64,000 nt of DNA from Sordariomycetes sp. S80-01Y (lineage: Eukaryota > Ascomycota > Sordariomycetes), in assembly GCA_037042185.1 (NCBI GenBank), contig JAXQJY010000028.1:62001-126000 (forward strand), given 5' to 3'. Within the stretch, counting starts at the first letter, position 1; every line of letters begins with the position of its first letter. Under the pieces are notes generated by a model. That model had not been told where the DNA came from. It saw nothing but the letters and a program-made list of their open reading frames with translations, and did not search any database. The translations under genes were made by a program, and so were the position numbers. Shown in pieces: positions 22,873-60,531 of this stretch.

Positions 22873-25800
22873 TCAGAGACCCATCGTCCTTCTCTCCGCC
22901 ATGACTCCATCGTAGTCGACCCGACAGCTGCCGCAGTGCTTTGCCTTCCATTCCTCCAACGCTCCCCTCTTACCCGAGGACATGGCGCTCAGGACCTTCT
23001 GCGCCGATTCATCTTGAGGCGCTCGATCCTTGCCCTTGCCCTTGCGATCCTTGGTGTCGCCCTTGAGCGTCATATCCAGGATCTCGCAGAGCGAGACCTC
23101 GTTCGCTAGCCAGTTCTCCCATTCAGACTGCAGCATCTCCCGCTCGATGCTGTTCACCACTCTCATCGAGACTATCAAATCGTGTCTGTAGGTTCCCAGT
23201 CGCTGTCGTGTCCGTCTCAGGCGCTTGGCGATGGACTTGGTCGAGGGTGAGGAGAGCATCATGCCCGCATCCTCCCACGGCGCGTCCATATCTGTCGCTT
23301 CAAGGACTTCCTGGAAGCTGGAAAAGCAGGTGCTGTTCTGCGGGAACTCGAGTTGCTTGCTGGGACCCGCGGCATCGGCCAGGTCTGACATGTAGATGGC
23401 CTTGCTCATGACCGTGTTCGGCCCAACGCCGAGGCTGCGCATGAAGCCTGCCGCTCGTCTCTCCCGCCACCAAGTCGCCGTCTCGGTCGACGTCAACAGG
23501 AAGTTGGTCAGCATGCTGAAGCCAAGAACAGCCAGCAGTAGCCTTTGCGCTGTGGCGATGGCGAATATCTTCCTGATGCCCGCAAAGGTCCACATGATGA
23601 GCGACGACACGGCGCTCTCGCCAAATGATCTGACCGTCTCCCACACCAAGGCCGTCAGTGTGCGGGCTTTGGTCGCCTGCTTCTTGCTCGCGTCGGTAGC
23701 AGCCGGGGAGAATATGGTGACTTGCTTCTGATGACCGACCTGCCCGTACACCTGAATGGCCCTGTTCGTCCTGCTGCGTGCACCGAGCTTCCGGACCTGA
23801 TCCGTAGCCAGCTCAGCCAGTTCCTGGCCGTCACTAGCAATGTCGTGCAATGCCTGCCGCTCAACAAGGCCCTTTGAAAGAGTAGGAATCTTTGACCAAT
23901 CCACTCGGGTGTAAATTGCCAGTCGGCACTTGGACTTGGCGATGAAGGTAATGACAATCTTGGTGACAAGCTTGAAATTCTGCGAGTGCGGAAGATGCCA
24001 GGCCGTCTTGACGTGTGTCACCACGTACGTCACATGCTCGCTGTGCAGGTCAATGGTTTGGTAATCTGTCACCTCCATCGTCTTTGTCCTCCCAAGCAGG
24101 TCAGTGTGATCCACTTTGAACTTGAATTCACGGCGCATCCGTCCGTTGTCGACATGGAGCCACGGTCCCTGAGCAATCTGCTGCGCTCTGTGCTCAAAGT
24201 ATAGCTTTGGGAACACAAAGCTTTTATCTCCAAACAGGACATGGAAGCACGACTTGGCGCTGATTTCAAAGTGTCGCTCTGCCGCCATCTGATGCATGTC
24301 CTCCGGCTCGTACACAACGGGATGGGTAGGTAAGTGGAGTTTGGGTGGCACCGTCAGCCGCGAGCTTGATGGTTGAAGTGACGGCACGCTATCGGTAAGT
24401 TGCCGTCTACCGGCAGGTGTGCCGTCGTCGTAGGGCGTGTTCTGCGACACTTCCTCCCAGCTTTCTGCAAGCGGGCTCGGCTTTTCCGCCTCGTCCCTCT
24501 CAATGCTGATCAGTGCAGAGACAATCTCCTCCGTTTCCATAGGGACCTCTGCTTGTAGATCGTCGATAAGCAGATTCAAACGACTATGGAGCAGGCTGAG
24601 GTCATCGAGGAAGGTTTTGATGGTGATCTTCGAGTAGCCGGTGTCGTTGGTATCTTGGCCGAGGTGCAAAAAGATGAAATCATTCTCCTTGCCAGCATCG
24701 GCTGTAACCTCTGAAATCATGTCGAGGGGCAGAGTATACGCGGTGACCAAGCCCATCTGCTGGCCATAGAAATACATGTGGTCAGGGGTAACGTAGATCC
24801 GGCCGTCTCCAGCAAGGACCTGGTTGACGCTAGACTCAGGGTTGGACGACGTACTAGACCATGCCGCGCGGAACACAAGAACCAACTTCTCTTCCACAGG
24901 CGCTTGCGGGAATAGCAGGCGGAACTGACCATGCTGAGCACGCAGTTCAGGAGGGTAATTAGAGGGCAGGGTATCTTGAGTCTGTCTCTGGTGGAGAGAC
25001 TCAGCGAGGGGCGTAGTTGTGTTGTCCGGCGATACAACGACTCCCACCGGGTCGTCATCACTGAACCGTGGCAAAATAGGCTCAGGAGGCGGCGTGTGCA
25101 TGTTTCCCCAGGTATTTGTTCCCCAATAATTCGCAAGCACCGAGGCTGGGATTTTCTTGTCACTCGAGCTCGCGTCGCGCTGGGCCGCAGTAAGGACAGC
25201 TGTACGATTCAGATTCGTGACGACGGGCGGCTTGGCCAATGTCAGGGGCGCCAAAGTCCCCGGATGAGTGTCCACAGGCGGGAGCAGGCTTTTACCATGC
25301 CTGGAGCCGAGGGCAGAATTCGGATGCCCAGGCAACAGGCTGTTGCTCGCAGAGATCAGGCTGGCGATACCACCCGCGGACCCTGACGAGCCGCCCAAGG
25401 CCGCCTCAGCGCCGGCTCCGAATGTAGCTTTGCGGTGAAGATCGAGCTTCTGGATGATCCGTGCCGCATGCTCGCGACCAGACTCGCCTTCCTCTCGTAC
25501 GAGGTCGCGACCTAGTGCCGTGATGGACCGGCGAGATACGCTGCCATTAACATCGAAGCTTGTCCTGGAGGCAAGATCACCTCCAGGCACGGCCAATGTA
25601 CTGCTCCGCTCCACCGCAGGTGGTTCCTCTGATGATCCCACACCTAACTGAGCGTCGAGGGCTCGCGCCGAAAACTCTGGGAAGCTCGGAGGGGATATCG
25701 AAAAAGCCGGGTCTTGGCTTGCGCCCGCGATAGAGTCCCTGTCCATGGTCGCCTCGAAAGCCTTCTTCTTGATGACCTCAAACACCTCGAGCCATTCGGT

Positions 25801-26976
25801 AAGCTCAGTCTGCGTCTCGGCTTGCAGCATGAGGGTTTGGCTCTTGGTTTTGACCTCGAAACAAAAGCGCCTATCCTCGCCGGGTGCTGGTTTCGCGTTG
25901 CAAAGAAGAACACCTATCTCGTCACCCTGCAACACGCCCTGTGGTCCCGGGACAAGCCATCCAAACACGCGGTCTCGACAGTAATACCAGCGTCGCACCC
26001 AGTTGTGTCTAGATGGCTTCCCTGACAGTGTCCGCAAGTACAGCCAACCCTGCTTCTCCGAGATAACTGCTCCTTCATCCTTGAGCTTTAGGTTCATGGG
26101 GCCCCTCGATCCTAGGTATGGTACCGTAGATGTGCTGTAATCCTCGAGCTCCCTGGACGGCTTGCACCCCGTAAGCGCAGTATCACCCAGATCCCTCCTT
26201 GCGATCTGAAGTTCCCTGCGGAAAATGCTCTCTGAGTTTTCCATCTCCCTCGCCCAACCCCGAACACGGTCCATCTCCTGCTCGTAACGCGTGGCGCTGG
26301 TCGCTGCATCCCGTGACCGCTTCATCTCTTTCCAGACCTCCCCTGATACCTTCACCAACAGTTTATCCATTGTGTATCGGACTTGCGGGGCGAGCTGGCA
26401 GTAGTCCATAGAGGCTTGGAGGTAGGCTTTTCGGGTCTCGTATACAGAGAAGGCGTCTTCGCGCAGATGTGAGGGCTCCTTGGTCTTGGACTGGGAGACA
26501 TAGCGTGCTAATGTCGTGTCGAAGGTCCTCTGGGCCTGCTCTAGTACTTTGCGGATCTCCTTGAAGTTGCGCATATCGCCAACAAGGAACGACCGCACAG
26601 GCTCGACAACAGTACTGTCCATCCGCTTCATACTGCCCAGCAGCTGCGTCCAGCACTCTCTCGAGCCATCGCCCGCGCGTTTCAGCGCAAGAAAGGTATA
26701 GTCGTTGTCGATGACGCCGTCGGTCGCCGAGGGGACGGTCTTGGTCAGGTAGGAGTTGATGGTCTCTTCGAGCGCGAGGATGTCGTGCAGCAGCTTCGAG
26801 GTCGAGTTGACGTAGCCATTGAGCCACTTCTCTACAGCATCGATCTGTTCGGCAAAATGCGAAACGGTGGCGCGGAAAGTCGGCGAGTCGAGAGCAGCCT
26901 CGTGAAGTCCTACCGCGACGGCACGATGCGTCGGCTTCAAAGCCGCTGCCGGCGTGGCTATCGTGGCTTCAGCCAT
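22873..26976 (-). CDS. sip3: SIP3/LAM-type sterol transfer protein (BAR-PH-GRAM-VASt-TM)
   Basis: Membrane-contact-site protein of the yeast Sip3/Lam family, which moves sterols between ER and plasma membrane. Single exon, 1367 aa. Order: BAR-like helices about 20-270; PH domain about 308-415 (EKQGWLYLRTLSGK to LTEWLEVFEVIKKK); a long disordered linker; GRAM-like segment near 690-790 (FRLLFPQAPVEEKL to FIFLHLGQ); VASt START-like domain about 890-1060 (FFGDKSFVFPKLYFE-type region, with FKFKVDHTDLLGRTKTMEVT); one membrane segment about 1134-1163; and a 204-residue tail ending with a small CGSC motif. Absence of introns over 4.1 kb is unusual beside its intron-rich neighbours. Confidence 0.93.
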   Translation of the reverse strand: MAEATIATPAAALKPTHRAVAVGLHEAALDSPTFRATVSHFAEQIDAVEKWLNGYVNSTSKLLHDILALEETINSYLTKTVPSATDGVIDNDYTFLALKRAGDGSRECWTQLLGSMKRMDSTVVEPVRSFLVGDMRNFKEIRKVLEQAQRTFDTTLARYVSQSKTKEPSHLREDAFSVYETRKAYLQASMDYCQLAPQVRYTMDKLLVKVSGEVWKEMKRSRDAATSATRYEQEMDRVRGWAREMENSESIFRRELQIARRDLGDTALTGCKPSRELEDYSTSTVPYLGSRGPMNLKLKDEGAVISEKQGWLYLRTLSGKPSRHNWVRRWYYCRDRVFGWLVPGPQGVLQGDEIGVLLCNAKPAPGEDRRFCFEVKTKSQTLMLQAETQTELTEWLEVFEVIKKKAFEATMDRDSIAGASQDPAFSISPPSFPEFSARALDAQLGVGSSEEPPAVERSSTLAVPGGDLASRTSFDVNGSVSRRSITALGRDLVREEGESGREHAARIIQKLDLHRKATFGAGAEAALGGSSGSAGGIASLISASNSLLPGHPNSALGSRHGKSLLPPVDTHPGTLAPLTLAKPPVVTNLNRTAVLTAAQRDASSSDKKIPASVLANYWGTNTWGNMHTPPPEPILPRFSDDDPVGVVVSPDNTTTPLAESLHQRQTQDTLPSNYPPELRAQHGQFRLLFPQAPVEEKLVLVFRAAWSSTSSNPESSVNQVLAGDGRIYVTPDHMYFYGQQMGLVTAYTLPLDMISEVTADAGKENDFIFLHLGQDTNDTGYSKITIKTFLDDLSLLHSRLNLLIDDLQAEVPMETEEIVSALISIERDEAEKPSPLAESWEEVSQNTPYDDGTPAGRRQLTDSVPSLQPSSSRLTVPPKLHLPTHPVVYEPEDMHQMAAERHFEISAKSCFHVLFGDKSFVFPKLYFEHRAQQIAQGPWLHVDNGRMRREFKFKVDHTDLLGRTKTMEVTDYQTIDLHSEHVTYVVTHVKTAWHLPHSQNFKLVTKIVITFIAKSKCRLAIYTRVDWSKIPTLSKGLVERQALHDIASDGQELAELATDQVRKLGARSRTNRAIQVYGQVGHQKQVTIFSPAATDASKKQATKARTLTALVWETVRSFGESAVSSLIMWTFAGIRKIFAIATAQRLLLAVLGFSMLTNFLLTSTETATWWRERRAAGFMRSLGVGPNTVMSKAIYMSDLADAAGPSKQLEFPQNSTCFSSFQEVLEATDMDAPWEDAGMMLSSPSTKSIAKRLRRTRQRLGTYRHDLIVSMRVVNSIEREMLQSEWENWLANEVSLCEILDMTLKGDTKDRKGKGKDRAPQDESAQKVLSAMSSGKRGALEEWKAKHCGSCRVDYDGVMAERRTMGL

Positions 26977-27797
26977 GATGACGGACGGGATGAGGTAGCC
27001 GTCTCTTCGTTAGGATTGCGATCTGAGCGACATGTGGCAAAGGGTCGATGGTCAAACGGGGAACCAAGGTGTGTGAGGGAATCGTACGGCGTATTGATAA
27101 GGTAGTGCAAGATAGAGGCCGTTGGGGTTGGGGAACGTGTGGGGATGAGGTTCTCTAGCTAAGGTACGCAGGACGTCTGGAACAGGATGACGATTGATCC
27201 CCGAACCTGCGTCCCCACCGAGCCAGACAGGCACCCACCGCCACTGGCAGCCAACCGCGTGGGATTCTCTGCTCGGGTCCGTAACTAAGCTACCCGAGAT
27301 CTCGGATTCGGCCCCCCTTTGCGTTGTTCGCAACTAACCTCATTTGCGAGTTTCTGATCGCTTTCCAATGGCGGACCACGTATTCAATGCGAGTATCAAT
27401 TTCAATACGACATGTCACTCTGCGTTCACGGGCAAAGGAGGCTGTGGCTATGTTGGTCTCATAACAGTCCACTTAAGCCCGGCAGTGCTTCATGGTCCAG
27501 TTAACAGGACGCAAGCCGCTTGGATTCAACAGGTCAAACGAGCGTGTAGTATTCACTTCGCTGGCTAGTGTATACATTGGAATCCATCAGCTGCCGCCGT
27601 GCGGTCTCGGCGTCCAAAACAGCCGCATCCAACCCGCGAAGCGGCCTCAGCCACCTTGGGTTGATCTTGGCAAATGCTCTCTAATCGTGATTCCACCGGC
27701 AACAATCTAACGCGGTAAGCCTTGAAGTTGTCAGCCGGCTATGCTCTTGGAGAACGAAGTCCAGAAGAGATGCACCTTTACTTCCGCAGTCATCAAC
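26977..27797. other. SIP3 promoter and eRF1 downstream region
   Basis: No gene seen. The right part lies downstream of eRF1 and includes a possible 3'-UTR intron at 27707-27775, listed separately. Confidence 0.45.
27707..27775 (-). other. Candidate 3'-UTR intron of eRF1
   Basis: On the minus strand AAAG|GTGCAT (27775) starts a 69-base stretch. It contains a perfect fungal branch motif GCTGAC and ends CGCGTTAG (27707). It lies about 245 bases after the predicted eRF1 UGA and just after the end of the in-frame extension. The donor is weak, so this is only a candidate. Spliced 3'-UTR introns in eRF1 transcripts are known from Neurospora crassa. Confidence 0.3.
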
Positions 27798-28019
27798 TCA
27801 ATTGGCCGTCATCGTTGTGTGGAGTGGGCTCGGTCGCGACACCTGGGTACCCGGCTGGAGGGCAGCTCTGGAGCTGCCTGGACCCATGAGCTTTCTTTGA
27901 GCATAGGACATGGGCGCGGCGTCGCTCAACCTTGGCGCAGCATTTGGCGCATCGTAGTTGACGCGCGCGGACGGTTGATCTTGAGTTGGTCCCTCGTCGG
28001 CGACGAAGGAATCCACAGG
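27798..28019 (-). other. In-frame extension after the eRF1 UGA (possible read-through)
   Basis: Directly after the eRF1 UGA stop the same frame stays open for 73 codons (first residues PVDSFVADEGPT, last TTMTAN) to another TGA at 27800-27798. The stop context is UGA-C, a leaky context in many eukaryotes. The extension has no ATG for its first 36 codons, so it is not an obvious separate gene. With this base composition an open run of this length is not rare by chance (my estimate is several percent), so read-through is a hypothesis. Confidence 0.35.
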
Positions 28020-29539
28020 TCAATCTGCTCACGTTAGCACCATTCATCAGAATCAAGGACATGGCTACCTACCGTCGTAGTAGTCGTCATCGTCGCTGAG
28101 CTCAGCCAACTGCTCAAAGTTGACCTTGTAGCGAAGGATACCGCCAATACCGCCGAAGCCCTTGACGAATTGGTTGCCCTCAGTGGAACGGTCCGAGACG
28201 AATTCTAGCGTAGTACCGAACTGGCGGTAGTTCTCGGCGATCCACTCCAGGAAGCTATCCTGCGAGACGATATCCATCTCCTGTCCAGTGGCGCTATCCA
28301 GGAACTTGTCGCGGTTGGCGTCCTCTTGAGCTTTGGTCAGGTGGATGTGGTGCTCGCTTCCCTCGCTGTCCCGGAGGACCCAGCGCGTGATCTCGAGGTT
28401 CTCGAACACAATGAGCGTCTCGACAGCACCGAGCTCAAGAGCCTTGAGCGTGTCATCGATACCGTAGCAAACCTTGCCAGTGTCCTGGCTAATCTCCTCG
28501 AAGTATTTGCCAATGAGCTTCTTCTCCTGAATGAATTTGACGTTGCCCAGGGTTTCCGAGGACAGTTCAATTGCCTGGTTGAATCCGTTCTCTCCACCGT
28601 AGGACACATCGACAACCTTGATGACCTTGGTCTGCAAACGGTTGTCGAACAAGTCGGAAGCGTTGAGATCATTCTTGAAATCGGCGGATCCAGCAAGAAT
28701 AATACCAGCGACGTTGACCTTGTCGTTGGTGATGAAGTTTTGGACGGCAAGTTCGGCAACCTTGCGGACGTAGTTGTGGCGCTTCTCCTCACGAAGACGG
28801 GCGAAACGCAGGGCAGACTGACCACCACGACCGTGCTTCTTGGGAAGATCCACAGAGAACTTATGGACAACTTCGCGGGTGTTGCCGCTGAGTGTACCGA
28901 AAAGGGCGCCGTTACCATCCATGATGATGAAGCCAAACTTCTGGTCGGACTCGAGGAGTTCGGCCAAGGCCTCGGTATGGAATTTGTTGTCGCAAAGGTA
29001 CAGCGAGGTGTTGATGGGCTTGAAAGGCTCGAAGTCGATGTTGACCTTCCTCTCCTTGCCTTCTTGTGTCAAAATTTCACCACAGTACACCACCAGACCG
29101 TTCGGTGGAACCTTGTTGTACAGCTTGAGGCGTTGCTGGGTGGAGGTAATGGCAGACAGGACGGACTGTCGGTTGACTCGCGACTTGATGTTGGAGGCGG
29201 TACCGTACTCTTCAGCCAACATCTTGGCTGCGCGGGACACCTGATCCTTGGGAGCTGAGGGGCATCGTCAGCGCAAGCTGCAGGTGGTGTTCGAGGGTTC
29301 GGTGGGGCTTACGAATGATGAGCGAGATCATGGAGGTTCCATTTCCTCTGGCGGCTTCGAGACGCTTGATCAGCTTCTTGACCTTCCAGATCTCAATCTA
29401 CAAGACATGTCTTGTTAGTCTGCATCTTCTTCGTCGGGCTGCGCTTCGTGCGATGTCGAGATCGCGGGGCACAGGAGGAGGGGGTCCAGGAGGCACTACT
29501 TACGTTCTTCTCCGCCTCATTTGCCTGGGCGTCGCTCAT
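28020..29539 (-). CDS. sup45: Translation release factor eRF1 (SUP45)
   Basis: Recognises all three stop codons and releases the peptide with eRF3. Exons 29539-29504, 29397-29313, 29254-28073, 28024-28020 give 435 aa, the family length. It starts [12 protein letters not shown], followed by [20 protein letters not shown]. Key motifs are TASNIKS (stop recognition), YLCDNKF (YxCxxxF) and GRGGQ (peptide release). The final intron (28072-28025, 48 nt; GTAGGT donor, GCTAAC branch, AGCAG acceptor) splits the last Asp codon, so the last exon is only ATTGA and the protein ends DDDDYYDD. Without that splice the frame ends two codons later at a TAG (28067-28065) with GlyArg. A GAGCAG tandem acceptor could add one Ala in the same frame. 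The exon sum is a whole number of codons only with this last exon. Confidence 0.95.
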
Positions 29540-50756: not shown

Positions 50757-51455
50757 ATGCTTTTAAAGGTCTTTGTGGCGTTGACGGCCCTTCCGGCGGT
50801 GTGGTCTTGCAATCCACGGAGCACGAATTCGTCCATGGACGTTCCCGAAACCATCCTAGGCCCTGATACGCCCGCCGACCCTGAAACCCTTGGTTACTTC
50901 ATCAATCACTTCTCTCTCAACGTCAACAACCTCACCCGAAGCATCGAGTTCTACAGAGACATCTTTGGCATGCGTCACATGTTCACCCACTACTTGACAC
51001 CCCACATCACCGTCACCTACATGAGCCACAGCCAAGGTGGTAGGAACGGCACTGGCTATCAGAGCACAGAAGAAATGCTACGCTACAAGAACAACAACGG
51101 TGGCCATCTCGAGTTCGTCCATCTTAACACGACGGGCGAGGACATCCCCGGCCCATCGGAGCAGACGAGCACCTTCAGCCACGTTGGCATCATTGTCCCA
51201 GACGTGGAAGCCATTCAAGAGCGACTGGAAGACTACGGTGTGACGATCTACAAGAGGGTTGGGGAGCCTATGCCTGCAGATGGTTATCTCTCCAGACCAA
51301 GCTCGCTTGGGGATGCGTCGAATCTGAGCAGCGAAGAATTCGCTGCATTCCAGGAAGCAATGACGCAATTGAACCAGCTAAACGTTTTCGCGGCGGACCC
51401 CGACGGTAATCTTTTGGAAATTTTGCCCCTGAATGAGCCAAACTTGTTCGGCTAG
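50757..51455 (+). CDS. Secreted VOC/glyoxalase-fold protein (232 aa)
   Basis: Vicinal-oxygen-chelate family, glyoxalase I-like. Signal peptide MLLKVFVALTALPAVWSC. The four metal-ligand positions are intact: His51 (FINHFSLNV), Glu119 (GGHLEFVHL), His142 (FSHVGIIVPD) and Glu221 (GNLLEILP). Also present are SIEFYRDIFGMRHMFT and ADPDGN. Glyoxalase I is normally cytosolic, so the signal peptide and N-glycosylation sites suggest an extracellular or luminal substrate (inference). The start is the first ATG at 50757; the frame is open a little further upstream without an ATG. Confidence 0.88.
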   Translation: MLLKVFVALTALPAVWSCNPRSTNSSMDVPETILGPDTPADPETLGYFINHFSLNVNNLTRSIEFYRDIFGMRHMFTHYLTPHITVTYMSHSQGGRNGTGYQSTEEMLRYKNNNGGHLEFVHLNTTGEDIPGPSEQTSTFSHVGIIVPDVEAIQERLEDYGVTIYKRVGEPMPADGYLSRPSSLGDASNLSSEEFAAFQEAMTQLNQLNVFAADPDGNLLEILPLNEPNLFG

Positions 51456-59151: not shown

Positions 59152-60531
59152 ATGAAAAGAGCACTCCCTGTTGGCCTTGGGCTCATGGCCCTCGCAATGA
59201 CCATCGCACTCATCAGCGACGGCATCGCCCTCGCCATCCAAATCTCGGACAACTCTACGGTGCGGACAACGTCCATTATTCTGGCCGCTCTGGAAGCCAT
59301 CGTCTGGGCTATGCTCGCTTGGTTTGTTTCGACCGCGGTTTTTGACTCCATGTCATCGCTCTTGAGACGCTCATCCACACATCGCCTCTTTCTGTCGTTT
59401 GGTTGCGCTGGACTGGCGTGTCTGCTCGCTGCCATCTTGTCCATAGTCAACATCGTTTGCCTCGCGAACCTGGGCGACTCAGATAGGTCCAGCGATGCGA
59501 AGCAGAGCCATCTCCTCACATCTTCCGTCATTCTCCCCGTCACTGTCGCCTGCCAGCTCAGCTTCCTGGGCGTCTACTTCCTCAGCTGTCGCCGCAACAA
59601 GGACGAAGGCGCTGAGTCGCTGTACACCAACGACGAGTATCGGCCCTCGCCCAAATTCCACGTCAAATCTGTTCCATATAGCAAGACTCGTCCCTCGCTG
59701 GCCGAGTCGCGGCCTGGAACCTCCCAAGAGTCATTCGAGATGACGTTGGAGAGCAAGAAGTCGTTCCAGGTCAGCGCCTCGCCTCGGTCGTCCATGTCTC
59801 AGTCCATTCGCTCGATGCCGTCCAAGAGCCGCCTGGAGGCTATCAAAGAGAAGCAACGCCTGCCGTCGCTCGATTCGAATGCATGCAGACCAAGCACCGA
59901 TGAACACGACGAATGGGATGCGCAGAAATCATCATCGCCAAGTTTTCCCGCCCTTCCCAAGCCTCGTCTTTTGGAAACGATCCCGGCAAGCCCCGTTGTG
60001 CCCGAGCGCATGAACCTGACGGATCTCCGGCCTCCCCCACCCATCAGACAGCGGAGTCGCAGCTACAGCCCTGTCGCCTCCAGGTCTCGCTCGAGGACAT
60101 CGTCGCCTACGCCCAGCTGCTCGACCGAAGAGCTCAACATCCACCCTCTTTTTCGTTCAGACTCACCCACGCCCCCGCCTGTCGCTTCAGCAGGCACCAG
60201 CGTGATGGCGTCGCCTGATGCCGGCAAGGTCCTCCCTCATCGCCCGAGTAACCAATCTCTCCGTCGCTTGAGGAGCAGCAGCGCATGCTCCAGCGCCAGC
60301 CCCTTGAGTCGAAGGACTTCCTTCGAGACTCCGAGTCTGAAAAAGCCCTGCGATGAACAGGATAGCATCTTGGAGGTCGATGAGGACGATGATTCAGCCA
60401 CTGTAACTGAGGAGGAGCTGATACCCCCAATCCCCGAGTTCGTCATGGGCGCTGGCTGCCGGTCGAGCTTGACGCGCTACAACAGCAAACGCTCAGATCA
60501 TCAGTCTGAGCCTCAACAAAAGTCATCATGA
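59152..60531 (+). CDS. Four-TM protein with long Ser/Pro-rich tail (459 aa)
   Basis: Function unknown. Single exon from MKRALPVGLGLMALAMTIAL. Four hydrophobic segments lie in the first 160 residues, the last ending in FLGVYFLSCRRNKDEGAE. About 290 residues of disordered, Ser/Pro/Arg-rich tail follow (RQRSRSYSPVASRSRSRTSS), many of them likely kinase sites, ending in an acidic VDEDDDSATVTEEELIPPIP patch. The layout suggests a plasma-membrane or cell-cortex protein with a cytoplasmic regulatory tail (inference). The frame continues upstream to 58906 only from a TTG, so 59152 is the start, after a long leader. Confidence 0.75.
   Translation: MKRALPVGLGLMALAMTIALISDGIALAIQISDNSTVRTTSIILAALEAIVWAMLAWFVSTAVFDSMSSLLRRSSTHRLFLSFGCAGLACLLAAILSIVNIVCLANLGDSDRSSDAKQSHLLTSSVILPVTVACQLSFLGVYFLSCRRNKDEGAESLYTNDEYRPSPKFHVKSVPYSKTRPSLAESRPGTSQESFEMTLESKKSFQVSASPRSSMSQSIRSMPSKSRLEAIKEKQRLPSLDSNACRPSTDEHDEWDAQKSSSPSFPALPKPRLLETIPASPVVPERMNLTDLRPPPPIRQRSRSYSPVASRSRSRTSSPTPSCSTEELNIHPLFRSDSPTPPPVASAGTSVMASPDAGKVLPHRPSNQSLRRLRSSSACSSASPLSRRTSFETPSLKKPCDEQDSILEVDEDDDSATVTEEELIPPIPEFVMGAGCRSSLTRYNSKRSDHQSEPQQKSS

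Follow-up and report, generated by a model that had tools for sequence, protein, structure and literature searches.

The minus strand of the window, by which we mean the whole 64,000-nt stretch of DNA from Sordariomycetes sp. S80-01Y analysed here, encodes an intact eRF1. All three Pfam domains of this family (eRF1_1, eRF1_2 and eRF1_3) were matched by the gene, its large exon matched solved eRF1 structures with an E-value of 5.6e-194 (phmmer), and a self-trained gene finder recovered it at 29539..28020 without any prior hint, predicting three introns of 106, 58 and 48 nt (Table 1). The gene finder was trained on 264 kb of the host genome (the window plus 200 kb; the assembly comprises 30.9 Mb in 16 contigs) and arrived at GTRAGT, RCTRAC and YAG as the intron consensus of the host. 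All intron figures given below derive from its stricter intron model, which converged on 82 genes and 132 introns. A first intron model was dropped after it had diverged to 2519 "introns", and a plain consensus intron pattern was of no use, as it gave 283 matches where three rounds of shuffling gave 285 on average. The best matches of the uL3 exon of the host were the chains 7r81 and 7olc, which we take to be those of Neurospora crassa and Chaetomium thermophilum, respectively; these matches fit a Sordariomycete, and the genes and introns of the host are those of a filamentous fungus. Relatives were also sought in other contigs: six stretches in viral contigs fitted a pattern, none of which was confirmed, and in the genome contigs searched, an archaeal release factor was the one candidate confirmed out of 32.

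Downstream of eRF1 and on the same strand, the next gene (22873-26976, minus strand) has no predicted introns and encodes a protein of 1367 residues, in which BAR, PH and VASt domains are joined by a GRAM match slightly below the cut-off. Such a combination is typical of membrane-contact lipid-transfer proteins.

Table 1. Features at the 3' end of the eRF1 gene (positions within the window).
Feature	Position	Strand	Remarks
eRF1 coding part	28020..29539	-	exons 29539-29504, 29397-29313, 29254-28073 and 28024-28020; 435 codons + stop
Last intron, 48 nt	28025..28072	-	donor GTAGGT, branch TGCTAAC, acceptor GCAG; predicted, score 19.49
eRF1 stop UGA, then C (UGA CCU GUG)	28020..28022	-	TGAC in 3/80 predicted genes
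Perfect 9-bp hairpin UCCUUCGUC-GCC-GACGAGGGA	27990..28010	-	predicted fold, -11.9 kcal/mol; candidate readthrough stimulator
73-codon frame past UGA	27801..28019	-	coding-like in readthrough phase only; putative C-terminal extension
Second in-frame stop, UGA G, closing the readthrough frame	27798..27800	-	
Candidate 3'-UTR intron, 55 nt	27721..27775	-	GTGCAT .. GGCTGAC .. AAG; score 13.6; unproven

The 48-nt last intron is a convincing prediction, as judged from its splice signals. It scores highest among the three introns of eRF1 and above 107 of the 129 other predicted introns, while its branch-to-acceptor distance (10 by the measure used) is an ordinary value, being 10 or less in 23 of these 129. 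Splicing would remove an in-frame TAG, formed by intron bases 6-8, and is predicted to leave a coding end of only five bases, ATTGA, so that the protein terminates in ...DDDDYYDD*. A coding end a few bases past an intron is not rare in this genome, since a last coding piece of at most 7 nt, including the stop, occurs in three of the 61 intron-containing genes (eRF1 counted). The donor of this intron is part of a tandem, GTAGGTAG, at 28065-28072 (minus strand), the second GT of which lies 4 nt further, scores 14.2 vs 19.5, and would splice into another phase that stays open for 77 codons.

After splicing, the reading frame closes with UGA followed by C, a stop context that is weak evidence when taken alone, being shared by three of the 80 predicted genes if eRF1 itself is counted. 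According to a study in yeast, C at position +4 modestly hinders eRF1 and is accompanied by the highest readthrough (PMC6614816). Exactly 73 codons are then open between this UGA at 28022..28020 and a TGA at 27800..27798. The initial annotation had named the 48-nt intron with its donor, branch and acceptor, the removed TAG, the ATTGA exon, the UGA-C and the 73-codon open frame, and each of these was recovered in the sequence, the intron at 28072..28025 with a score of 19.49. The length of the open frame by itself is unremarkable and weak evidence, because eight of the 80 genes (eRF1 counted) are open for at least 73 codons past their stop, because 322 of 5000 sequences obtained by monoshuffling the 600-nt flank are open that long, and because a 91-codon frame runs through the same region in another phase. 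The latter, an open stretch from stop to stop at 27793-28068 (minus strand), crosses both the last intron and the extension in a phase unlike that of eRF1 or of the extension. When the 219 nt alone were monoshuffled, 630 of 5000 sequences stayed open.

Composition is better evidence than the length of the open frame. The coding score of the extension was +4.1 in the readthrough phase vs -6.6 and -17.5 in the other two phases, and lay between -11.4 and -22.5 on the opposite strand; furthermore, six overlapping sub-windows were all positive in the readthrough phase (0.6 to 3.0). Among the 80 flanks, an in-phase score of +4.1 was reached by eRF1 only, and the open stretches of the other 14 genes with at least 40 open codons scored between -19.7 and +0.9. 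Once the window was excluded from training, the score of the extension came to +2.3, a value that was equalled or exceeded by 30 of the 761 stop-free windows taken from outside predicted genes and by 43 of 817 wrong-frame windows (windows lying partly inside predicted genes were left out of these control counts), whereas 75 of 545 coding windows scored below it. A codon-only test still placed the readthrough phase first (-1.17 vs -11.94 and -11.15 in the other phases), but it separated the extension more poorly from the controls, as 83 of the 761 stop-free windows and 186 of the 817 wrong-frame windows performed equally well or better, and this weakens the coding signal. Stop-free monoshuffles did as well as the extension or better in seven of 408 cases with the full model and in 25 of 408 with codons. 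Taken with the openness of the frame as given, the composition of the extension is thus a modest coding signal, of the order of one in four to one in twenty-five depending on the test and the control. As to the identity of the putative tail, Pfam yielded no match up to an E-value of 1 and solved structures none up to an E-value of 10, and a search of the host genome for a second copy returned a chance-level match only (E 0.64).

A further element, absent from the initial annotation, is a predicted hairpin right behind the stop, the first base pair of which lies 9 nt past the UGA, with a loop of three bases and a 3' arm at 27998..27990. In a comparison of single stems starting 6 to 14 nt past the stop, it ranked top of 81 genes with -11.9 vs -6.4 kcal/mol for the next. 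Of 2000 dinucleotide-shuffled sequences, eight had an equally stable stem, as had 21 of 4888 60-mers of matched GC content and three of 2344 TGAC sites, figures that are optimistic as estimates of chance, because several features had been inspected before the stem emerged; the single-stem test itself came after a scan of multi-part folds. When multi-part folds are allowed, the 60 nt past the eRF1 stop rank second of 81, and 22 of 100 shuffles fold equally well. Folded within five different contexts of the spliced mRNA, the hairpin had a mean pairing probability of 0.966 to 0.994. The 80 nt from the UGA fold with -30 kcal/mol (z -3.39; equalled by one of 200 shuffles); over 222 nt from the UGA, the advantage over shuffles is slight (z -1.79). 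Rfam gave a sub-threshold match only (20.7 vs 58.7 bits).

Three other predicted structures were noted in the window. Within the extension, a perfect 7-bp stem with a loop of four bases (GGCAGCT CCAG AGCTGCC) lies at 27861-27878 (minus strand), and the 51 nt round it fold like shuffles (z 0.18). A predicted gene at 59152-60531 (plus strand) also ends in UGA-C (TGACATT) and has the most stable multi-part fold past its stop among the 81 genes (-15.1 kcal/mol), its single stem being weaker (7 bp, -5.2). The lowest folding z of the 81 genes, calculated over 80 nt from the stop, was -4.02 and belongs to a predicted gene at 50835-51455 (plus strand).

The spacing of the eRF1 hairpin is close to that of described readthrough signals, in which, as stated in a review (PMC3542737), 3' structures typically start about 8 nt past the stop. 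The same source lists UGA-CGG and UGA-CUA among the Type II viral readthrough signals, several of them with a 3' stem-loop. As far as this description goes, eRF1 resembles them in combining UGA-C with a predicted stem-loop at 9 nt, but differs in having CU instead of GG or UA after the C (UGA CCU) and in its predicted stem, a short, simple one of 9 bp instead of an extended one. In Drosophila, a structure element at +10 to +58 served as a guide in a study in which 1012 genes qualified under its stem-loop criteria (PMC13170385), and by that count stem-loops are no rarity past the stops of that animal.

The evidence is different for the second splicing event proposed for this mRNA. The initial annotation had placed a 3'-UTR intron at 27775..27707, but this version scores 7.92, below all of the 129 other introns. 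With the acceptor AAG at 27721 instead, the score rises to 13.6, above ten of the 129, and 27775..27721 becomes the top candidate among donors within 600 nt past the stop. Its donor lacks G at +5, as is the case in eight of 129 introns, and an acceptor AAG is found in seven; both traits occur together in one. Equally good candidates, however, were found in 59 of 400 shuffles, eight of 80 gene flanks (its own counted) and 16 of 80 antisense flanks, and in none of 71 exon stretches. Since it is matched at chance level in shuffles and flanks, the candidate intron is no evidence by itself. Its donor lies 244 nt past the UGA and 22 nt past the readthrough stop, and these distances would suit an autoregulatory circuit if the candidate were spliced.

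Considering these features together, our preferred reading, which we hold at no better than even odds, is that the 3' end of eRF1 carries a programmed readthrough signal that senses the termination capacity of the cell, as in the Neurospora circuit. In such a scheme, splicing of the 48-nt intron would create a UGA-C stop with a stable predicted hairpin that starts 9 nt further on. At high levels of eRF1, ribosomes would halt at the UGA, leaving at least 244 nt untranslated together with any exon junction further downstream, and this untranslated stretch or junction would expose the mRNA to nonsense-mediated decay (NMD). When eRF1 is scarce, some ribosomes would instead decode the UGA as an amino acid and read 73 more codons, so that the UTR would be cleared up to the second stop and the mRNA spared. 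Decay might be triggered either by the weak candidate intron, located 22 nt beyond the second stop, or by the long 3' UTR alone. That the stop leaks, that the leakage depends on eRF1 and that it spares the mRNA from decay are steps we infer by leaning on precedent. Domains of UPF1, UPF2, UPF3 and Mago are encoded in the host genome, each with a match above the curated cut-off. The same circuit had been put forward in the initial annotation, and its two halves fared differently: the readthrough half gains from the UGA-C, the predicted hairpin and the coding-like phase, whereas the decay half is only a proposal, since chance alone yields equally good intron candidates in such a flank. A more elaborate version, which we consider rather unlikely, would be a cellular recoding cassette on eRF1, in which UGA-C plus the 9-bp predicted hairpin makes readthrough steeply dependent on eRF1, while the 73-codon extension ends 22 nt before the weak 3'-UTR intron, such that reading through once would suffice to remove the exon-junction mark; in this cassette, the hairpin would serve as the tuning part.

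The strongest competitor, a realistic possibility although we lean against it, is that of an ordinary eRF1 3' end, at which nothing connects the stop-near intron with the UGA-C, the open frame or the hairpin, all of them having met by chance in GC-rich sequence, with eRF1 being regulated otherwise or not at all. Most of the features are indeed common when taken singly (8/80 for an open frame of at least 73 codons, 3/61 for a last coding piece of at most 7 nt), the 3'-UTR intron stands at chance level, the extension is without a Pfam or solved-structure match and its genome match is again at chance level, and the codon-only coding test is weak. An ordinary 3' end fits less well, however, with a hairpin that is rare at that very place (8/2000 shuffles), with a coding-like composition confined to the readthrough phase, and with the existence of such a circuit on the eRF1 of Neurospora, as announced by the title of the respective paper.

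It appears improbable that the last intron itself is the regulated step. Its retention would end the protein at UAG-C (...YYDGR) and its removal at UGA-C (...YYDD), giving near-identical proteins with another stop and another UTR. Both the in-frame TAG at intron bases 6-8 and the tandem donor GTAGGTAG would be in line with such a switch, but with a score higher than that of 107 of 129 others, the intron is expected to be spliced efficiently. Least probable of all, and only a slight possibility in our view, is that alternative splicing from the donor 28072 to an in-phase acceptor at 27980 or 27878 reaches the 73 codons and provides eRF1 with a longer tail: both acceptors retain the coding-like phase and skip the UGA, but the normal acceptor scores 19.49 as compared with 8.11 (27980) and 11.23 (27878), introns of 93 and 195 nt would result, and 27980 has a low branch score (1.26 vs 8.53).

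The readthrough circuit proposed for the eRF1 described here has close precedents. In Neurospora crassa, eRF1 is autoregulated by readthrough together with NMD elicited by a 3'-UTR intron, going by the title of Kurilla et al. 2020 (FEBS Lett 594:3504; cited in PMC10578600 and PMC9809470), and factors of the exon junction complex (EJC) are required in this fungus for NMD via spliced 3'-UTR introns, as stated in PMC10578600. The initial annotation had named the 3'-UTR intron of Neurospora and the readthrough circuit of plants, and omitted the readthrough in Neurospora. As far as these sources allow a comparison, the present case is alike in the gene concerned, in a stop that looks leaky and is followed by an open frame, and in a genome encoding NMD and EJC factors, but it is unlike in that its 3'-UTR intron is without sequence support and in that a predicted hairpin is added 9 nt past the stop. 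The circuit itself is already known, and the eRF1 case presented here is at most a new member of it; the abstract of the Neurospora study is said to propose similar circuits for many fungi. Readthrough and NMD also underlie the autoregulation of eRF1 in plants (Nyiko et al. 2017, cited after the summary in the review PMC11062462). The proposed logic is alike, as far as that summary goes, since high eRF1 leads to decay whereas low eRF1 leads to readthrough and spares the mRNA; in the plant mRNA, however, a long 3' UTR is combined with a distant intron, which is only a candidate in the present case. A hairpin on eRF1 was not described in the fungal or Neurospora literature on eRF1 readthrough among the matches listed, as represented by their titles and the openings of their abstracts, and it may thus be a new detail of the eRF1 circuit.

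If the hairpin is idle, the gene would be an ordinary relative of the Neurospora case. If instead the proposed readthrough signal is real, the self-sensing circuit of eRF1 would reach another filamentous fungus, and a hairpin at the classical readthrough distance would be added to it. A simple signature, namely UGA-C, a hairpin at 8-10 nt and an open phase, could then be sought at the eRF1 genes of other fungi, and a question would arise: do fungi tune the set point of their termination capacity by RNA structure?
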